This document shows, in pieces, positions 1 through 57,846 of a stretch of DNA of 64,000 nt. Position numbers and translations under genes: made by a program. Origin of the DNA: Flavobacterium gelatinilyticum (lineage in GTDB: Bacteria; Bacteroidota; Bacteroidia; Flavobacteriales; Flavobacteriaceae); contig NZ_CP114287.1 of NCBI RefSeq assembly GCF_027111295.1, positions 2,604,001-2,668,000 of the forward strand, read 5' to 3'. Position 1 is the stretch's first letter, and every line of letters begins with the position of its first letter. A model generated the notes under the pieces. The model was not told the origin of the DNA. It saw nothing but the letters and a program-made list of their open reading frames with translations, and did no database searches.

Positions 1-240
1 AACCTCATCGCCAGGTTTCAGGTCCAGTCCCATCATAGCAATCTGCAAAGCATCTGTTCCGTTTGCACAAGGAATAACGTGTTTTGCACCTAAATAATTT
101 TCAAGATTTTTTTGAAACTGATGAACTAAAGGTCCGTTAATGTAAGTATTGGTATCTAAAACTTCCTGAATTGAAGCATCTACAGTAGATTTTATTTTTT
201 CATATTGACTTTTTAAGTCAACCATTTGAATTTTTTTCAT
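1..240 (-). CDS. DegT/DnrJ/EryC1/StrS-type sugar aminotransferase, N-terminal part (partial)
   Basis: The gene reads leftward out of the window; only the first 80 codons (ATG at 240-238) are present. The visible N-terminus, with MVDLKSQYEKIK, then NTYINGPLV at about 31-39 and the motif CANGTDAL at 58-65, is typical of PLP-dependent DegT/DnrJ/EryC1/StrS aminotransferases, which aminate keto intermediates of nucleotide sugars used for LPS or other glycans. The catalytic lysine would lie outside the window. It is divergent from the Kdo transferase gene waaA, which fits an envelope-glycan role. Family call is firm; the exact sugar substrate cannot be read from this fragment. Confidence 0.85.
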   Translation of the reverse strand, partial: MKKIQMVDLKSQYEKIKSTVDASIQEVLDTNTYINGPLVHQFQKNLENYLGAKHVIPCANGTDALQIAMMGLDLKPGDEV

Positions 241-377
241 TTTTGAATGTATTTAAAATTAAAGACACTGTTTTTAACAACAGAAATCTCTAAAGGGAGG
301 AACAAAAATAGTTATTAATAGCTTCAAACCAATGAAAATAGTCGAAAGAAATGTAATTTAGCCACAAAAATTATTAG

Positions 378-1607
378 ATGCTTTTTTTATACAATTTAAC
401 CATATACGTCGCAGGATTTTTCTTAAAAATCATAGCACTGTTTAGTCCGAAAATTAAGCTTTTTGTTGAAGGCCGGAAAAACGTCTTTCAAACTTTAGCA
501 GAAAAAATAAAACCCAATGACAAAACCATCTGGTTTCATTCTGCTTCACTGGGCGAATACGAACAGGGACTTCCTGTTATTGAAAAAATCAAAGAAAAAT
601 ATCCCGAGCATAAAATCATTGTATCCTTTTTTTCACCATCTGGATACGAAGTGCGTAAAAATAACACAGTCGCAGATGCTACAATCTATTTACCACTTGA
701 CACAAAACGAAATGCAAAGAAATTTATTAAACTGGTTCACCCTGAATTTGCTTTCTTTATTAAATACGAATTCTGGCTTAATTATCTCAAAGAATTAGAG
801 AACAACCAAATTCCAACATATTTGGTTTCAGGAATTTTCAGAGACAAACAAATGTTTTTTAAATGGTACGGCGGTTTTTACAAAAAAGCGCTTAATGCCT
901 TTACTTACTTTTTTGTACAGAACCAAAGCTCCAAACAAAAAATTGAAAGCATTGGTTTTAAAAATGTCATTGTTTCCGGCGACACGCGTTTTGATCGTGT
1001 GAACGCTATTTTGGAAAGAGATAACAGCCTGGATTTTATTGAAAATTTCAAAAACAATCAAACTACAATCGTTATAGGAAGTTCATGGCCAAAAGACGAA
1101 GTTCTAATTTCCGAATATATCAATCAGGCTCCGGACAATGTGAAGTTTATTATTGCCCCGCACAACATTAAAGCTGATCAGATTTCCAACCTTAAATCGC
1201 AGATTTCTAAATCGGTCGTTTTATATTCTGAAAAAGAAAACAAAGATTTATCAAACTGCAATGTGTTTATAATAGACACAATAGGTCTTCTGACCAAAAT
1301 TTACAGTTATGGAACCATCGCTTATGTTGGAGGCGGATTTGGAAACCCGGGAATCCATAATATACTGGAACCAGCCGCATTTGGAATCCCGATTGTAATA
1401 GGCCCAAATTATTCTAATTTTGCAGAAGCTGTTTCGCTGACCGAACTTGGAGGCTGTATACCAATATCCAATACAAACGAATTGAAAGAAATTTTTGATC
1501 GGTTATTAACTGACGAAAACTTCTTAAAAGAGAAAAGCGAAATTTGCAAATCATTCATTCAGAACAACAAAGGAGCAACTGAGACCATTTTGAGAGTTGT
1601 TTCATAA
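378..1607 (+). CDS. waaA: 3-deoxy-D-manno-octulosonic acid (Kdo) transferase
   Basis: WaaA (KdtA) transfers Kdo from CMP-Kdo to lipid A precursor at the inner face of the inner membrane. At 409 residues the protein is close to the usual ~420. An N-terminal hydrophobic anchor (about 5-25) is followed by the family block HSASLGEYEQG, in which Glu60 is the expected general base, and by the second-domain motifs YVGGGFG and GIHNILEPAAFGIP around 315-335 for nucleotide-sugar binding. Start ATG at 378 lies 17 bases after a weak -7-like box (TAATTTAG, 354-361). It is divergent from the DegT-type aminotransferase gene, consistent with LPS biosynthesis. How many Kdo residues it adds cannot be told from sequence. 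Confidence 0.93.
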   Translation: MLFLYNLTIYVAGFFLKIIALFSPKIKLFVEGRKNVFQTLAEKIKPNDKTIWFHSASLGEYEQGLPVIEKIKEKYPEHKIIVSFFSPSGYEVRKNNTVADATIYLPLDTKRNAKKFIKLVHPEFAFFIKYEFWLNYLKELENNQIPTYLVSGIFRDKQMFFKWYGGFYKKALNAFTYFFVQNQSSKQKIESIGFKNVIVSGDTRFDRVNAILERDNSLDFIENFKNNQTTIVIGSSWPKDEVLISEYINQAPDNVKFIIAPHNIKADQISNLKSQISKSVVLYSEKENKDLSNCNVFIIDTIGLLTKIYSYGTIAYVGGGFGNPGIHNILEPAAFGIPIVIGPNYSNFAEAVSLTELGGCIPISNTNELKEIFDRLLTDENFLKEKSEICKSFIQNNKGATETILRVVS

Positions 1608-1816
1608 CAGATCTTGTATAAGATACAATTTTAAGATTTATTTGCGCTAAAAAAACCAAAGACTACTGTTTTATTCCTTTTTTAAAATGATGCAATACTC
1701 TTAAAAAACAAAATAAACTGCAAAGCTCTTAATTCAAACAGCCAATTGTTCTAACGAATATTCAACAAAAAATAATTTAAGCCAAACATTAAATAATTTA
1801 AGATAATTTTATAATT

Positions 1817-1832
1817 TTGGCATATTCTTTGA
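1817..1832 (+). promoter_or_regulatory. Candidate sigma54 (-24/-12) promoter
   Basis: The stretch TTGGCATATTCTTTGA has the layout TTGGCA-N6-TTGA, with GG (1819-1820) followed after exactly ten bases by GA (1831-1832). The sigma54 consensus is TGGCAC-N5-TTGC, so the -24 half is good and the -12 half has A in place of C. If used, the transcript would carry a leader of about 110 nt before the lipoprotein start. A TAATTTTG box overlaps it (1812-1819), so a housekeeping promoter is an alternative. Confidence 0.35.
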
Positions 1833-1907
1833 TAAATAAGATAAACGTGAGTAAGGAAAATATTTTAAAAAAAAAGTGAAAAAATATTTTACATATTAAA
1901 AAATTTA

Positions 1908-1915
1908 TATCTTTG
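1908..1915 (+). promoter_or_regulatory. TAnnTTTG -7 promoter box for the small lipoprotein gene
   Basis: TATCTTTG matches the Bacteroidota primary-sigma -7 consensus TAnnTTTG. The expected start of transcription is near 1920, about 32 bases before the ATG at 1953. No clear TTG -33 box is seen; the upstream region is an A-rich tract, which may act as an UP-like element. Confidence 0.65.
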
Positions 1916-1952
1916 CCACGAATTAATAATTAACCTTTTATAATAAAGTAAG

Positions 1953-2177
1953 ATGAAAAAAGTATTTTTAAGTTTAGCTGTTGTTGCTGTTTTAACTGTT
2001 GTATCTTGTAAAAAAGCTGACGCTGCAGCTACTGAAAACGTAGATTCTACTGCTGTTGCTGTTGATTCTGCTGCTGCTGTAGTTGATTCTGCTGCTACAA
2101 CTGTTGACTCTGCTGCTGCAAAAGTTGACTCTGCTGCTACTGAAGCTACTAAAGCTGCTGAAGAAGTAAAAAAATAA
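1953..2177 (+). CDS. Small heptad-repeat lipoprotein, resembling Braun's lipoprotein in layout
   Basis: This 74-residue protein has a signal peptide with a lipobox ending VVSC, so lipidation at Cys19 is expected and the mature protein would be 56 residues. From residue 30 it consists of seven-residue units starting VDS: VDSTAVA, VDSAAAV, VDSAATT, VDSAAAK, VDSAATE, then ATKAAEE and a VKK end. Val at position a and Ala at d suggest an Ala-rich helical coil. The size, lipid anchor, heptads and C-terminal lysine are reminiscent of Lpp of E. coli (58 mature residues), but there is no sequence homology I can claim. Codons are strongly biased (GCT for Ala, TCT for Ser), and strong promoter and terminator signals flank it, suggesting high expression. 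Function unknown; the Lpp comparison is inference. Confidence 0.85.
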   Translation: MKKVFLSLAVVAVLTVVSCKKADAAATENVDSTAVAVDSAAAVVDSAATTVDSAAAKVDSAATEATKAAEEVKK

Positions 2178-2202
2178 TTAGAACCTAAATTCTAAAGATT
2201 TT

Positions 2203-2231
2203 AAAACCATCGAAATCGATGGTTTTTTTTT
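2203..2231 (+). terminator. Intrinsic terminator of the small lipoprotein gene
   Basis: A perfect 10-bp stem (AAAACCATCG / CGATGGTTTT) with an AAAT loop is followed by a run of T. It lies 25 bases after the lipoprotein stop codon. Confidence 0.9.
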
Positions 2232-2261
2232 GACCAGACCTCAAAATCCGGTTAACCCATA

Positions 2262-2302
2262 AAAAAAAAAGCGTCCTGATTTCTCAGCACGCTTTTTTTT
2301 TA
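2262..2302 (-). terminator. Terminator of the DUF1508 gene (bidirectional shape)
   Basis: A hairpin made of AGCGT/ACGCT and an inner CTGA/TCAG stem, separated by a single C-C mismatch, is flanked by A8+ on one side and T8+ on the other, so it can work on both strands. It touches the stop codon of the leftward DUF1508 gene. Confidence 0.8.
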
Positions 2303-2680
2303 TTCTTCCGCTTCTTCTTCAACCAAAACCTCCTGATCTTCAAAAATCAAATCGTTTGACGAGAAATCCAGAATCTCAGATTTCGAAGCATAGGTAACAA
2401 TTTCCTTTATCCCTTTCTGAAGAAGCAATTCTGTTGTATATTTTCGACTTGTTGCAAAATGAACACCATCAAGCATCAGTTTAAAAAAATACTTCCCTCC
2501 CGAGCCTTTAAATTTCAAAAACTTAGCAAGCTCTATCGTCCTTTTAAACCTCTCTATATCTTCCTCACACTCAAATCGCAATTCATAACTCAGACTGGTA
2601 AAAATAACCTTCCCTTTTCTTGAAGTAAACACAAATTTATATTCATCATTAAACCGTCTGCTAATTACAAAAGCACCCAT
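2300..2680 (-). CDS. DUF1508 (YegP-like) protein
   Basis: A 126-residue protein with the opening MGAFVISRRFNDEYKFVF and a continuation KGKVIFTSLSYELRFECEED that matches the DUF1508 repeat known from E. coli YegP (beta-strand, KG/NGQVI-TS, then a helix starting C-x-x-x-I). A second, more divergent copy follows at about 62-110 (GGKYFFKLMLDGVHFATSRKY). It ends in an acidic tail (VEEEAEE). DUF1508 proteins are small, soluble and of unknown function. It stands alone between two terminators. Confidence 0.8.
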   Translation of the reverse strand: MGAFVISRRFNDEYKFVFTSRKGKVIFTSLSYELRFECEEDIERFKRTIELAKFLKFKGSGGKYFFKLMLDGVHFATSRKYTTELLLQKGIKEIVTYASKSEILDFSSNDLIFEDQEVLVEEEAEE

Positions 2681-2793
2681 TTAGAAATTTTAATTTTTAG
2701 ATTGTTGATTTTAGATTTAGAATCCCGTAGATTCTTAGACTTTCTAATAAATTTACTACGTAAATTTATCATTCACAAGTTTTGCAAATAAAA

Positions 2794-2819
2794 AAAGCCT
2801 CTTCAAAAGAAGAGGCTTT
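2794..2819 (-). terminator. Terminator after the tRNA pair
   Basis: A perfect 11-bp stem (AAAGCCTCTTC / GAAGAGGCTTT) with an AAAA/TTTT loop. Read leftward it is followed by a T run and sits 2 bases after the 3' end of tRNA-Leu. Confidence 0.9.
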
Positions 2820-2821
2820 AG

Positions 2822-2907
2822 TACTCAGAGCGGGACTTGAACCCGCACGAACATTGCTGTTCACTGGATTTTAAGTCCAGCGTGTCTACCAATTTCACCA
2901 TCCGAGC
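2822..2907 (-). tRNA. tRNA-Leu (anticodon UAA)
   Basis: The reverse complement folds as a class II tRNA of 86 nt. The anticodon stem CTGGA/TCCAG holds loop CTTAAAA, giving anticodon TAA, which reads UUA. There is a long variable arm (GAAC...GTTC) and a T arm GCGGG-TTCAAGT-CCCGC. The acceptor stem pairs GCTCGGA with TCTGAGT, including two G-U pairs, and the discriminator is A as expected for Leu. CCA is not encoded. It is 14 bases downstream of tRNA-Gly and probably cotranscribed. Confidence 0.97.
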
Positions 2908-2921
2908 ATTATATGGTTTTG

Positions 2922-2994
2922 AGCGAAAAACGGGGCTCGAACCCGCGACCTCGACCTTGGCAAGGTCGCGCTCTACCAACTGAGCTATTTTCGC
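2922..2994 (-). tRNA. tRNA-Gly (anticodon GCC)
   Basis: The reverse complement folds into a standard 73-nt cloverleaf: acceptor GCGAAAA/TTTTCGC, D arm with AGTTGGTAGAGC, anticodon stem CGACC/GGTCG with loop TTGCCAA (anticodon GCC), T arm with GTTCGAGC, discriminator T as expected for Gly. CCA is not encoded. First gene of the tRNA pair. Confidence 0.97.
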
Positions 2995-3044
2995 ATTCAA
3001 ATTTTAAAGAACCGCAACACTTGATTTGTTTCGTATTGCGAGTG

Positions 3045-3074
3045 CAAATTTAGGACATTTATTCAATTACACAA
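3045..3074 (-). promoter_or_regulatory. Promoter of the tRNA-Gly/tRNA-Leu operon
   Basis: Read leftward: a TTG -33 element (3074-3072), an 18-19 base spacer, then TAAATTTG (3052-3045), a full match to TAnnTTTG. It lies about 50 bases upstream of tRNA-Gly and after the mutS stop codon. Confidence 0.75.
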
Positions 3075-3153
3075 GCGTTTTTCGAAAAAAAAGTTCACTT
3101 ATTTTATAACATTCTGATAACCTAAACTTTAAACTTTGATTTTTTTTTTGGTT

Positions 3154-5760
3154 TTATTTCTTCACCAGCATTCTTTTAATCTCGTTCAGCTTCATTAAGG
3201 CTTCTACCGGTGTAATAGCATTTATATCGAGGCTCAGAATCTCTTCTTTTATCTCTTCCAGCAAAGGATCATCCAAATTAAAGAAACTCATCTGCATTTC
3301 ATCATTAGCCGCTTTTATTCCGTTTAAAGCATCGCTTGAATGATTCTTTTCTAATTTCTTTAAAAGTTTTTGTGCTTTTGAAATTACCAGCTGAGGCATC
3401 CCCGCCATTTTTGCTACATGGATTCCAAAACTGTGAGCACTTCCTCCTTTTTCGAGTTTTCTGATAAAAAGAACGGTGTCTTTTAACTCTTTTACCGCCA
3501 CATTAAAATTCTGGATTCTTGGCAGCGATTCTGTCATTTCATTTAACTCGTGATAATGCGTGGCAAACAAAGTCTTAGCTTTTGACGGATGCTCATGCAA
3601 AAACTCGGCAATTGCCCACGCAATTGAAATTCCGTCATATGTACTGGTTCCTCTTCCAATTTCATCCAGAAGAACCAGACTGCGATCTGAAATATTATTC
3701 AAAATCGAAGCCGTCTCATTCATCTCAACCATAAAAGTCGATTCTCCCATCGAGATGTTGTCAGATGCTCCTACCCTTGTGAATATCTTATCTACTATTC
3801 CCATTTTTACACTTTCTGCAGGAACAAAACTTCCCATCTGCGCCAAAAGTACAATCAAAGCCGTTTGCCTTAAAATAGCCGACTTACCCGACATGTTAGG
3901 CCCGGTAATCATGATAATCTGCTGCGTTTCCCTGTCCAAAAACACATCATTGGCAATGTACGGTGTCCCAACCGGCAACTGTTTTTCAATTACAGGGTGA
4001 CGGCCGTTTTTAATCTGCAGTTCGAAGGTTTCATCAATTTCCGGACACACGTACTGATTTTCGTTTGCCAGCTGCGTAAACGAACACAAACAATCTAATT
4101 GCGCTACTAAAAAAGCATTCATCTGAACCGGCTTGATGTAAGTTGCAATCCAGGCTACTAACTGCTCAAAAAGCTCTGATTCTATTTTGTGGATTTTTTC
4201 CTCCGCACCTAAAATCTTAGTTTCGTATTCTTTTAATTCTTCAGTAATATAACGCTCGGCGTTTACCAGAGTCTGCTTACGAATCCACTCTTCCGGCACT
4301 TTATCCTTATGTGTATTTCTAACTTCTATATAATATCCAAAAACATTATTGAAAGATATTTTCAAAGATGAAATTCCTGTACGTTCTGATTCTCTTCTTT
4401 CAATTCCTTCCAAAAATTCTTTTCCCGAAGTTGAAATCGCACGAAGTTCATCCAGTTCTTCATTTACACCTGTCGCAATGGCGTTTCCTTTTGCAATAGC
4501 AACAGGAGCATCCTGATTTAAAGTAACCTGAATTTTTTCTCTTAGTAAATCACAGGAATGCAGGCTGTCTCCAATTACTTTTACAGCTTCCTGCGGACTT
4601 TGAAGCGCAAGTGTTTTTATAGGAATAATAGCATCCAGAGATTCTTTTAAATAGACAATTTCACGAGGTGAAACTTTTCCGGCTGCGATTTTTGAAATCA
4701 AACGCTCTAAATCAGAGATTTGTTTGATCTGATATTGAATATCGTGTAATATTTCAGGATTTGATTTCAGGTACGAAACTACATCGTGGCGTCCTTTTAT
4801 CTTATTTTTATCTTTTAAAGGAAGAGCCAGCCAGCGTTTCAGCAGACGGCCGCCCATAGGCGAAAGCGTTCTGTCGATTACATCCAGAAGCGTTACGGCA
4901 TTTGGATTATAACTGTGGTACAATTCCAGGTTTCGAATCGTAAAACGATCCATCCACACATAGGCATCTTCTGCAATTCTCTGTATGGAAGTAATATGCT
5001 GGATTCGGTTATGCTGCGTTTCAGACAAATAATACAAAATGGCTCCCGCCGCAATAATTCCTTCTTTTAATTCTTCAACCCCAAAACCTTTTAAGGAATT
5101 GGTCTGAAAATGCTTAGTCAGCGTTTCCAGCGCATAATCTTCTTTGTAAATCCAGTCTTCCAGATAGAAACTATGGAAATCTTCTCCAAAAGCGTCTTTA
5201 AATTCACTTTTGCAGTTTTTCGGAACTAAAACTTCACTCGGATTAAAATTCTGCAATAACTTATCAATATATTCGGCATTTCCCTGAGCAGTTAAAAACT
5301 CACCTGTAGAAACATCCAGAAAAGCTATTCCAATATTTTTATTGGCAAAACAGAGCGAAGCTAAAAAGTTGTTTGATTTGGATTGCAGAACCTCATCATT
5401 TAAAGAAACTCCCGGAGTTACAAGTTCCGTTACTCCTCTTTTTACGATAGTTTTCGTCATTTTTGGATCTTCGAGCTGATCGCAGATAGCCACACGAAGT
5501 CCGGCCTTAACCAATTTTGGAAGATAAGTGTTTACGGAATGATGCGGAAAACCGGCAAGAGCTGTCTCGGTATCAGAACCTGCACCTCTTTTTGTTAATG
5601 TAATCCCCAGAATCTTAGAAGCCCTGATAGCATCTTCTCCAAAGGTTTCATAAAAATCCCCTACTCTGAAAAGCAGACAGGCATCAGGATATTTTCTCTT
5701 GATCTCATTGTACTGTTTCATTAAAGGTGTTTCCTTCACCACTTTTTCTTTAGCTGCCAA
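3154..5760 (-). CDS. mutS: DNA mismatch repair protein MutS
   Basis: MutS recognises mismatches and recruits MutL in an ATP-dependent manner. The 868-residue length is normal. The mismatch-binding Phe-x-Glu motif is present in GDFYETF (Phe36, Glu38). The ATPase domain has the P-loop GPNMSGKS at about 620-627, then the family blocks [21 protein letters not shown] and FATHYHEL. The C-terminal end retains the ~800-868 oligomerisation region. The start appears to be TTG at 5760: it gives the usual [16 protein letters not shown] N-terminus, no in-frame ATG precedes it, and the next ATG (codon 14) is also possible. A weak -7-like box TAAATTCG lies at 5801-5794. Monocistronic; the tRNA pair follows downstream with its own promoter. 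Confidence 0.97.
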
Positions 5761-5883
5761 AATTGATATGTTTTAAATGAAAAATTAAGACAGCGAATTT
5801 ATAATTTTTTTGAGGGAATATCTAAGGCTTCAAAAATTAAAATATTTTAAGATATTTTTAGGTCCTGATTTAAGAATTTTACA

Positions 5884-5891
5884 TAGCTTTG
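5884..5891 (+). promoter_or_regulatory. TAnnTTTG promoter box of the DUF1573 gene
   Basis: TAGCTTTG matches TAnnTTTG exactly and lies 28 bases before the ATG at 5919. A TTG inside this box opens the same reading frame, but it would be part of the promoter rather than a start codon, which supports the ATG at 5919. Confidence 0.7.
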
Positions 5892-5918
5892 TTCATCATT
5901 AAAAAAGACTGTAAAAAG

Positions 5919-6350
5919 ATGAAAAAAATAATTTTATTTGCTATGTTAGCTGTAGCTGGTATTACGGCTTCTAATGCACAAACAACTAAAAAAGCTAAAG
6001 CTGCTAAGGTTGCTAAAATCGAAGGTGCCGGAATGCTTTTCGAAACAGAAACTATCGACTACGGTACTATCGCTCACAATGCTGACGGTAAACGTGAATT
6101 TGTTTTTGTTAACAATGGTACAAAACCATTAATCATTACAAACACTCAGGGATCTTGCGGATGTACAGTTCCTACTACTCCAAAAGAACCAATCGCTCCG
6201 GGAGCTAAAGGTGTTATTGGTGTAAAATATGCTACTGACAGAGTTGGTGCTTTTACAAAAACGGTTACTGTAACTTCTAACGCTGAAGGACAACCAACAA
6301 AAGTACTTACAATTAAAGGTACTGTTTTACCAGATCCAGTAAAAAGCTAA
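5919..6350 (+). CDS. DUF1573 secreted protein
   Basis: A 143-residue protein with a signal peptide (MKKIILFAMLAVAGITASNAQ) and a Lys/Ala-rich stretch (TTKKAKAAKVAKIEG) before a single DUF1573 domain. The domain shows the typical sequence FETETIDYGTIAHNADGKR (residues about 41-59) and the signature GSCGCTVP, followed by GVKYATDRVGAFTKTVTV. DUF1573 folds as an Ig-like beta-sandwich (ASH/MSP relatives) and is abundant in Bacteroidota, probably periplasmic or secreted; its function is unknown. Codon bias (GCT, ACT, GTT) suggests high expression. Single gene between its own promoter and terminator. Confidence 0.88.
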   Translation: MKKIILFAMLAVAGITASNAQTTKKAKAAKVAKIEGAGMLFETETIDYGTIAHNADGKREFVFVNNGTKPLIITNTQGSCGCTVPTTPKEPIAPGAKGVIGVKYATDRVGAFTKTVTVTSNAEGQPTKVLTIKGTVLPDPVKS

Positions 6351-6374
6351 TCTGAAAAACAAGTAAATAATCGA

Positions 6375-6405
6375 AAAGCTTCCTTATCTTTGGAAGCTTT
6401 TTTTA
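6375..6405 (+). terminator. Terminator of the DUF1573 gene with a promoter box in its loop
   Basis: A perfect 9-bp stem AAAGCTTCC (6375-6383) / GGAAGCTTT (6392-6400) is followed by T5. The loop and first base of the right arm read TATCTTTG (6385-6392), a full TAnnTTTG match that would place a transcription start near 6398, about 26 bases before the RNA methyltransferase ATG. No TTG -33 element is seen. Confidence 0.75.
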
Positions 6406-6423
6406 TGACCTGAAATTACACCA

Positions 6424-6963
6424 ATGAGAAAACTTGAAAACAGCGAACTGGACAGAAAATCTATTGAAGACTTTAAAAAATCAGACAAGACTCCTTTGAT
6501 ATTGGTTTTGGATGATATTCGAAGCCTGCACAATATTGGTTCTGTGTTTAGAACAGCCGATGCTTTTTTAATTGAAAAAATAATCCTTTGCGGCATCACT
6601 GCCACACCTCCCAATAAAGAAATTCACAAAACTGCTCTTGGTGCGACTGAAACCGTGGCGTGGGAGCATCACGAAAATGTTTTGGAAGTTATTGAAAATC
6701 TAAAAAAAGAAAATGTTTTAACGCTTGCCATTGAACAGGTTGAAAGTGCCATTTTTCTTCAGGATTTTAAAACCGAAAAGAATCAGAAATACGCTTTGGT
6801 TTTTGGGAATGAAGTTTACGGCGTATCTCAGGAAGCAGTTGCGATCTGCGACGGCTGTATTGAGATTCCACAGCTAGGAACCAAACATTCTTTAAATATT
6901 TCTGTGAGTGCCGGAATTGTAGTGTGGGATTTATTTCAGAAATTAAACTGGCCAGGTAAATAG
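6424..6963 (+). CDS. TrmH/SpoU-family RNA 2'-O-methyltransferase
   Basis: A 179-residue SPOUT methyltransferase using S-adenosylmethionine to methylate a ribose 2'-OH in tRNA or rRNA. The three SpoU motifs are visible: motif 1 LDDIRSLHNIGSVFRTADAF (residues about 26-45, with the conserved N and R), motif 2 ALVFGNEVYGVS (about 123-134), and motif 3 IEIPQLGTKHSLNISVSAGI (about 144-163), which forms the knot and binds the cofactor. There is no N-terminal substrate-binding extension, so it is a minimal form. The exact target nucleotide cannot be predicted. Probably transcribed from the promoter inside the preceding terminator. Confidence 0.9.
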   Translation: MRKLENSELDRKSIEDFKKSDKTPLILVLDDIRSLHNIGSVFRTADAFLIEKIILCGITATPPNKEIHKTALGATETVAWEHHENVLEVIENLKKENVLTLAIEQVESAIFLQDFKTEKNQKYALVFGNEVYGVSQEAVAICDGCIEIPQLGTKHSLNISVSAGIVVWDLFQKLNWPGK

Positions 6964-26381: not shown

Positions 26382-27035
26382 TCAGGACTTGATAATCCAC
26401 ATTAAAACCTTTTTATTGGTTTTTAAAAGTGCATCTATTTCTTTCATGCTTTCGTTTGAAACTGCCGGACAACCCCAGCCTTCGGGTGTTCCGTATGGAT
26501 AAACCTCATCATCCGGAACGGCTTCCCAGGAATGTAAAACAATGGCGCGGCTTCGGGCATTTGAATTTGTTTTTTCTTTTCCCTGCAAAACATAATTCAC
26601 TTTGATTCCCCACTGACTTACACCACGATCCAGAATCACATATTTACCCAATGACGAACAATGCGAATCAAACTCGTTACTAATCTGCGGTTTGTCTTTT
26701 GATGCTGTTTTCCCCCACTGATTATCACCGCAGCCGTGACTTACCATATAGGATTTCGAAATTTCATTCTTTTTAAAATCGTAAACAAAAAATCTTTTTA
26801 AACCGGAATGAAGTCCCAGATCTATCAGAATGAATTTTTCCTGATTGAGATTGTTTTTTTTACAATAGAATTTTGCTTCTTTATAGTAGTCGGTGTAATT
26901 AATTTCAATTCGGGATTTTACTGAAGCTATTTCGCTTTTATGTTTATTTTCAGAAATAGTCGTTTTGTTTTCTTTATTGCAGGAAAATCCAAAAAGACAA
27001 AACAAAATTAAACAGTTCTTAATTACCATGTTCAT
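26382..27035 (-). CDS. L,D-transpeptidase-like lipoprotein (murein L,D-transpeptidase catalytic domain)
   Basis: A 217-residue protein with a short N-terminal hydrophobic segment ending GFSC (Cys19), a probable though non-standard lipobox. The catalytic domain resembles the murein L,D-transpeptidase catalytic-domain family (YkuD-related): DLGLHSGLKRFFVYDF, SHGCGDNQWG, ALVLHSWE-like AIVLHSWEAV, and the Cys-bearing GTPEGWGCPAVS, where the Cys after WG is the expected nucleophile and the His in LHSW the partner. Such enzymes act on peptidoglycan side chains in the periplasm; the precise reaction (crosslinking, hydrolysis or protein attachment) is not evident. Monocistronic. Confidence 0.82.
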   Translation of the reverse strand: MNMVIKNCLILFCLFGFSCNKENKTTISENKHKSEIASVKSRIEINYTDYYKEAKFYCKKNNLNQEKFILIDLGLHSGLKRFFVYDFKKNEISKSYMVSHGCGDNQWGKTASKDKPQISNEFDSHCSSLGKYVILDRGVSQWGIKVNYVLQGKEKTNSNARSRAIVLHSWEAVPDDEVYPYGTPEGWGCPAVSNESMKEIDALLKTNKKVLMWIIKS

Positions 27036-57519: not shown

Positions 57520-57846
57520 ATGGGATTATCATCATTTTTCAAGAATTTATTCGGCCCGGCGAAAGAAACCGCAGAAGATTTTGCAGATAAAGCCGAAACG
57601 ATCGCAGAAGGAGCGATTACAAAAATCCAGGAAGTCTCCGAACCTATTCTCCAAACTGCCGCCGACTTTGCAAATGAGGCAAAAAATGCCTTAACTGAAT
57701 ATGCAGATAAAGCATCGGACACTTTACATGATATTATTGATTCGATTACCGAAAGTACTGACGAAAACCATCGTGTAATTACAGAAACTGTTTTTGATGT
57801 AAGCGAAGATTCGGTAAGCGAAATAAGTGAAGAATCTGACAAGTAA
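57520..57846 (+). CDS. Small amphipathic helical protein, unknown function
   Basis: A 108-residue acidic protein without a signal peptide; nearly all of it is predicted helix built of AE/DKA-rich segments: AKETAEDFADKAETIAEGA, EVSEPILQTAADFANEAKNA, LTEYADKASDTLHDIID. Regular 11- to 14-residue spacing of Ala and Phe resembles LEA-like or YtxH-type stress proteins, with an acidic tail. I know no named family. Start ATG 57520, no strong promoter; TAATATTG (about 57489-57496) is near-consensus. It is followed by the mscS gene. Confidence 0.7.
   Translation: MGLSSFFKNLFGPAKETAEDFADKAETIAEGAITKIQEVSEPILQTAADFANEAKNALTEYADKASDTLHDIIDSITESTDENHRVITETVFDVSEDSVSEISEESDK

Follow-up and report, generated by a model that had tools for sequence, protein, structure and literature searches.

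A PG1828-family mini lipoprotein of Flavobacterium combines an almost invariant leader with conserved candidate O-glycosylation sequons

In a 64,000-nucleotide stretch of the Flavobacterium gelatinilyticum genome, referred to below as the window, the initial annotation described a tiny heptad-repeat lipoprotein as an unrecognised analogue of Braun's lipoprotein (Lpp), that is, an envelope tether linked to peptidoglycan through its C-terminal lysine by L,D-transpeptidases. The locus raises the question of whether the gene specifies such a tether or whether its conserved features point to another role. The features of the locus are the following.

1908..1915, plus strand: -7 promoter element TATCTTTG, of the Bacteroidota TANNTTTG type, from comparison of the sequence with the published consensus
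1919..1952, plus strand: near-invariant leader, a predicted 5' UTR of about 33 nt with the core CGAATTAATAATTAACC, from conservation across 81 loci
1953..2177, plus strand: PG1828-family lipoprotein ORF, 74 aa, from translation, NF050142 match, and homologue search
1953..2006, plus strand: lipoprotein signal peptide, residues 1-18, the lipobox Cys19 being next, read from the translation
2040..2144, plus strand: five VDS-led seven-residue units, residues 30-64, with one D-S-[T/A] sequon each, from translation
2145..2174, plus strand: variable C-terminal tail, residues 65-74, ending with VKK, from the tails of 131 leader-defined orthologues
2203..2231, plus strand: intrinsic terminator, with a stem at 2203-2226 and then a T run

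Translation confirmed that the ORF at 1953-2177 (plus strand) encodes 74 aa ending with EEVKK. The lipobox, VVSC, leads to Cys19 and leaves a mature lipoprotein of 56 residues. The five VDS-led units that had been described start at residues 30, 37, 44, 51, and 58; the alanine assigned to their d position is present in only four of them, the first unit harboring Thr33. The proposed strong terminator was also found, as a hairpin (2203-2226) with Ts directly after it. Another inverted repeat, also associated with a T run, is located at about 2262-2300, between two convergent genes, and is probably the terminator of the opposite-strand gene.

The family had already been named, contrary to the initial claim. 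The NCBIfam model NF050142, designated 'PG1828 family lipoprotein', matched the protein with 59.6 bits (cut-off 50), and a search of the genome (5.83 Mb, one contig) revealed one match over the cut-off, at 58.5 bits. A Pfam search of the ORF returned no family over cut-off. In Flavobacterium, NF050142 reached E ≤ 1e-7 in 125 of 150 genomes. Across Flavobacteriaceae, matches at E ≤ 0.001 were obtained in 177 of 199 genomes; two of the 199, both Flavobacterium, were over the cut-off, and the matches listed outside the genus mostly involved the signal-peptide part of the model. In a sample of the phylum, matches at E ≤ 1e-10 were obtained in 22 of 296 genomes, and those in 13 genomes exceeded the cut-off. 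Members outside Flavobacterium also harbor D-S/T repeats, a finding that is partly circular since the model is short, composition-driven, and rewards such repeats. Common ancestry of the Flavobacterium lipoprotein with the Bacteroidales PG1828 members is likely from these matches, distant homology being uncertain because of the same properties of the model. In the available portions of the sources, PG1828 of P. gingivalis is reported to be triacylated (PMC11225709, PMC10126205) and to activate inflammation (PMC6706054). It has in common with the protein studied here, which scores over the NF050142 cut-off, that both are small Bacteroidota lipoproteins. The Flavobacterium proteins differ from the family in that only 48 of 150 genomes of the genus are over the cut-off although the leader described below is present in 141. 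Limited term searches of the literature found no description of a small F. johnsoniae lipoprotein of this kind.

Assignment to the Lpp/OprI family was considered and rejected, since the corresponding model (NF040598) gave 18.1 bits (cut-off 43; E 0.0029) and since neither the terminal lysine nor the heptad is conserved, as detailed below.

A lipoprotein of the MKKV type is encoded at most 4.8 kb downstream of waaA in 112 of 130 waaA-containing loci, some of which were selected because they bear the lipoprotein. When waaA alone was used for selection, a strict motif detected the lipoprotein in 64 of the 80 named loci, and the lipoprotein leader is present in four of the 16 motif-negative loci (L178, L183, L184, and L190). 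A DUF1508-matching gene and mutS follow on the opposite strand in many loci; in the window, two tRNA genes (2822-2994, minus strand) lie between them. The first set of orthologues (n = 81) was defined by a protein motif and missed sequon-poor orthologues. Because a choice based on a protein motif favors repeat-rich orthologues, we used a set defined by the leader, which comprises 122 distinct proteins, or 131 with those from leader-only loci. L178, with a frame of 18 residues, and L303, with a 201-aa frame and a leader match containing two mismatches, were left out of this set.

The C-terminal residue of the 131 orthologues is K in 100, E in 13, H in 12, Q in 4, and N in 2, and 72 of them end with KK. 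Terminal lysine is found in 20% of 379 background ORFs and in 25% of 44 lipobox ORFs, and terminal KK in 6% of the 379. Any lysine past position C+2 is lacking in 16 of the 131 orthologues, and proline occurs past position +12 in 81. Strict seven-residue spacing was observed in 57 orthologues, all belonging to the 106 with at least three sequons (see below), and others display 5- or 8-residue spacing. On a waaA tree (a quick tree of 80 rows, L113 being dropped), the minimum number of changes was five for the lysine end, four for the presence of at least three sequons, and nine for the strict seven-residue register. Conservation of the C-terminal lysine and of the heptad phase, on which the proposed analogy depended, did not hold among orthologues: the lysine is enriched (100/131) yet absent in 31 of 131, with at least five changes on the tree, and the heptad is strict in only 57 of 131, with at least nine. 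Among these orthologues, the terminal lysine is thus enriched yet not required, and of the three traits the heptad changes most readily. This comparison does not support a covalent Lpp-like link as a conserved property of the gene, although such a link may still occur in species in which the protein ends with KK. What stands of the proposed envelope tether is a small, lipidated, probably abundant protein with a predicted helix; what does not is a conserved covalent link through lysine.

The L,D-transpeptidase-like lipoprotein that had been noticed in the window (26382-27035, minus strand) is genuine (PF13645 YkuD_2, 115 bits). Because the genome contains eleven such matches (six YkuD_2 and five YkuD, all over cut-offs), this gene provides weak and unspecific support for a tether. 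Four of five loci contain readable PF03734 frames of 521-537 aa. The E. coli enzymes that link Lpp are roughly 300 aa in length.

O-glycosylation in Bacteroidota occurs at a motif consisting of Asp, Ser or Thr, then mostly L, I, V, T, A, or S, and the function of the system is described as largely unknown in the available portion of PMC12871550. The F. johnsoniae glycoproteome is reported to comprise 325 sites in 226 proteins (PMC10897501). With a strict sequon defined as D-[ST]-[AILVMT], the window lipoprotein contains five sites, each VDS unit providing one D-S-[A/T]. It shares with Bacteroidota O-glycosylation substrates that it is predicted to be exported, owing to its lipobox signal peptide, and that it carries D-S/T-hydrophobic/Thr motifs. 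It differs from the 44 sampled lipobox ORFs, which have a mean of 0.35 sequons per 100 aa, by the presence of five motifs in 56 mature residues. In the sample of 379 ORFs, which covers 400 kb plus the window, its sequon density (6.76 per 100 aa) ranked first, the next value being 2.78. With this rank and 735 homologues at E ≤ 0.01, the repeat and the lipobox exceed chance. The second rank in sequon density is held by a 108-aa Ala/Glu-rich ORF with no evident lipobox (window 57520-57846, plus strand).

At least one strict sequon was found in 130 of the 131 orthologues, for 55.4 expected from composition shuffles, in a set whose members share history and in which repeats inflate sequon counts. 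The excess persists among the 25 orthologues with at most two sequons, 24 of which have at least one (5.2 expected); a single orthologue has none. Sequon-poor orthologues contain VEE-type units instead, and their existence indicates that many sites are not essential. Ser or Thr follows Asp at 503 of 630 positions and Glu at 117 of 677 in the 131 orthologues. Sequons are kept as spacing shifts, the distances of 7, 5, and 8 residues accounting for 275, 45, and 26 spacings, respectively. In the set of 81, of 665 residue pairs located seven positions from a D-[ST], 457 are also D-[ST], 32 consist of Glu plus another residue, and none is E-[ST]; the number of sequons did not exceed the 1% level of shuffles in six of the 81 proteins. 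In the proteins compared, the best-kept feature is thus the D-[ST]-hydrophobic/Thr sequon. From these motifs, we infer that glycans may be attached to the mini lipoprotein, and its conserved features are more suggestive of putative O-glycan sites than of a covalent link through lysine.

The strong codon bias that had been noted was borne out. The codon adaptation index (CAI) of the lipoprotein ORF is 0.916, compared to 0.70-0.77 for the eight ribosomal genes that constitute the whole reference set, and was reached by none of 359 background ORFs. Simulated recoding of the protein led to a CAI of 0.450 (sd 0.056) with genome-average codons and of 0.695 (sd 0.049) with ribosomal codon frequencies. 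The bias spans the entire ORF. Codon adaptation, which is distinct from a measured protein level, suggests that the mini lipoprotein is probably very abundant.

A promoter signal was also recognised. The -7 element TATCTTTG (1908-1915) fits TANNTTTG, the Bacteroidota -7 consensus published in PMC6847099, a promoter type outside the coverage of the sigma-70 promoter scan. Across 81 loci, columns -45 to -38, relative to the start codon, match the base of the window at a frequency of at least 0.99. Placing the transcript start from this element predicts a 5' UTR of the same length as the mean F. johnsoniae leader, which is given as about 33 nt (PMC6847099). In the 81 loci, 35 of the 45 positions from -45 to -1 are conserved at 0.97 or more (mean 0.96). 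Upstream regions of other genes were less conserved: no position out of 45 for groES (mean 0.65; 29 genomes, 29 of 30 loci being parsed and L263 dropped), five for waaA (mean 0.76; 74 loci, six of the 80 named loci being dropped), and five for the DUF1508-matching gene (mean 0.75; 41 loci). A narrower waaA set of 36 loci, caught by a motif fitting close relatives and mostly composed of them, gave 17 of 45 (mean 0.87), the 74-locus set being the fuller one. In the named loci containing both genes, 30 of 45 positions reached this level for the lipoprotein (23 distinct stretches) versus four of 45 for waaA (60 distinct stretches). Thus, the leader of the lipoprotein is more conserved than the upstream regions of groES and waaA.

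Conservation extends into the coding sequence. Codons 1 to 6, 12, 19, and 20 are identical in 76 of 76 orthologues, and pairwise agreement at the four-fold sites of codons 4-19 is 94%, versus 39% in waaA, the latter being a low estimate because waaA codons were paired without gaps. The first 27 coding bases of groES show 0.94 identity, which makes early coding identity alone less special. In the window, the almost invariant region (1908-1979) comprises the -7 element, the leader, and the first nine codons, and it is found genus-wide. With up to three mismatches, the leader has a single match in its own genome. With up to two, it was detected in 141 of 150 Flavobacterium genomes, three of which have a second match, and the reversed leader used as a control matched in one of the 150. 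Beyond the genus, where 197 genomes were searched, matches were at chance level: the leader was found in four, each time with two mismatches, and the reversed control in three. Folding of the leader was no better than that of shuffles (z +0.99), and an Rfam scan of window positions 1-6500 revealed only two tRNAs reaching the gathering score. The genus-specific, nearly invariant promoter, leader, and start region would drive expression of the lipoprotein and may constitute a particularly strong signal for expression.

AlphaFold2 predicted a helix for residues 30-73 of the window protein (mean pLDDT 66.3) and up to residue 57 of the orthologue P0114, followed by a low-confidence tail (mean pLDDT 66.8). 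The expected helix formation is thus predicted with modest confidence, and the pLDDT values are too low for an argument on coiled coils to be drawn from the models. A search of solved structures with the lipoprotein gave no match at E ≤ 1. The residues following the cysteine, KKADA, do not match the surface-export signals described in the available portion of PMC5080379, K-(D/E)2 in C. canimorsus and SDDFE in F. johnsoniae. A periplasm-facing position in the outer membrane is therefore the default, and the lipoprotein probably faces the periplasm from that membrane. Like Lpp/OprI, the protein is small, N-terminally lipidated, predicted to be helical, endowed with a heptad-like repeat, often terminated by lysine, and probably very abundant; it differs from Lpp/OprI in scoring under the model cut-off and in having orthologues that need neither the terminal lysine nor the heptad. 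The resemblance is probably a broad one, as a very abundant small envelope spacer.

The reading that we favor, with a probability of about 0.5, is that the gene encodes a very abundant lipoprotein that is anchored in the outer membrane on the periplasmic side and serves as a glycosylated stalk or spacer. Extreme expression would provide a lipid-anchored mini-protein whose mature part, a low-complexity helix or a flexible stalk, would carry a run of sequons serving the general O-glycosylation system of Bacteroidota. The resulting short glycosylated stalk, or brush, would fill and space the periplasm beside the outer membrane by its bulk and copy number rather than by conserved covalent attachment via a C-terminal lysine. 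The retention of a terminal lysine in 100 of 131 orthologues, a trait that changes about as rarely as the presence of at least three sequons, is left unexplained by a glycosylated stalk. In P. gingivalis, abundant outer-membrane proteins are reportedly spared by the O-glycosylation system (available portion of PMC8729774), which also counts against this reading. A bolder version is possible at best: the mini lipoprotein would be mucin-like and among the most abundant envelope proteins of the genus, with a glycan on each repeat forming a periplasmic sugar brush that sets envelope spacing. Its expression would be fixed by the genus-specific and nearly unchanging promoter and leader, the protein sequence being free to drift as long as sequons are kept. 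If the favored reading is correct, the protein would bear on outer-membrane spacing in Flavobacterium. With 56 mature residues, five sequons, one over-cut-off copy in the genome, and codon usage suggestive of extreme expression, it would offer a simple substrate for addressing the function of O-glycosylation.

The same properties could belong to a helical protein, acidic, rich in alanine, and devoid of glycans, that acts as a spacer or osmotic filler of the periplasm; its D-[ST] motifs would then simply reflect composition and the history of the repeats. The helix of both AlphaFold2 models, the sequon-poor, Glu-rich orthologues found behind the same leader, a composition conserved in kind while the sequence is not, and the reported escape of abundant P. 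gingivalis outer-membrane proteins from glycosylation (PMC8729774) are consistent with this proposal. We consider it somewhat unlikely, since the number of sequons exceeds that of composition shuffles even in sequon-poor orthologues, Ser or Thr follows Glu far less often than Asp (117/677 versus 503/630), and, of the 665 pairs lying seven residues from a D-[ST], 457 are D-[ST] and none is E-[ST]. A genuine Braun-lipoprotein analogue, forming a coiled coil linked to peptidoglycan by an L,D-transpeptidase through its C-terminal lysine, with loss of the link in some lineages, appears improbable. It would account for the lysine and KK ends (100 and 72 of 131, against 20% and 6% of the 379 background ORFs), the predicted helix, the mature length of 56, the eleven L,D-transpeptidase-fold matches, and the weak match of the Lpp/OprI model (E 0.0029). 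It is at odds with the 31 orthologues lacking the terminal lysine, 16 of the 131 having none past C+2, and the at least five changes on the tree, with strict seven-residue spacing in only 57 of 131 and proline in many tails, with the Lpp/OprI score (18.1 bits versus a cut-off of 43), and with the lack of a relative among solved structures. The 521-537 aa of the PF03734 frames in four of five loci, versus roughly 300 aa for the Lpp-linking enzymes of E. coli, point in the same direction. Finally, the conserved object might be the RNA, the leader and start region being regulatory, stabilising, or the source of a small RNA, and the peptide being secondary. In favor of this view, conservation of the leader, with 35 of 45 positions reaching 0.97, greatly exceeds that of the mature protein, and the leader was detected in 141 of the 150 Flavobacterium genomes, with matches at chance level outside the genus. 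This proposal is nevertheless very unlikely in view of folding no better than shuffles (z +0.99), of the Rfam scan of positions 1-6500, in which only two tRNAs were over the gathering score, and of the retention of the signal peptide, lipobox, and sequons, together with a codon bias extending over the whole ORF.

In L178, the leader is intact (near position 5535) and the frame behind it comprises 18 residues only, neighboring species having intact copies; a base-count error or a broken gene is the likely explanation. Small lipoproteins of the kind studied here occur in tandem in L225 and L230, with three ORFs each, and two neighboring lipoprotein matches were found in five genomes of the genus (G338, G208, G247, G284, and G317). 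A second type of small lipoprotein (MKK..SCKE..), helix-rich, Lys/Glu-rich, and mostly ending with K, is encoded near waaA in some species, namely in L180 (512-772), L187 (690-941), L202 (1346-1606), and L190 (63-296); its composition is more Lpp-like than that of the gene studied here.
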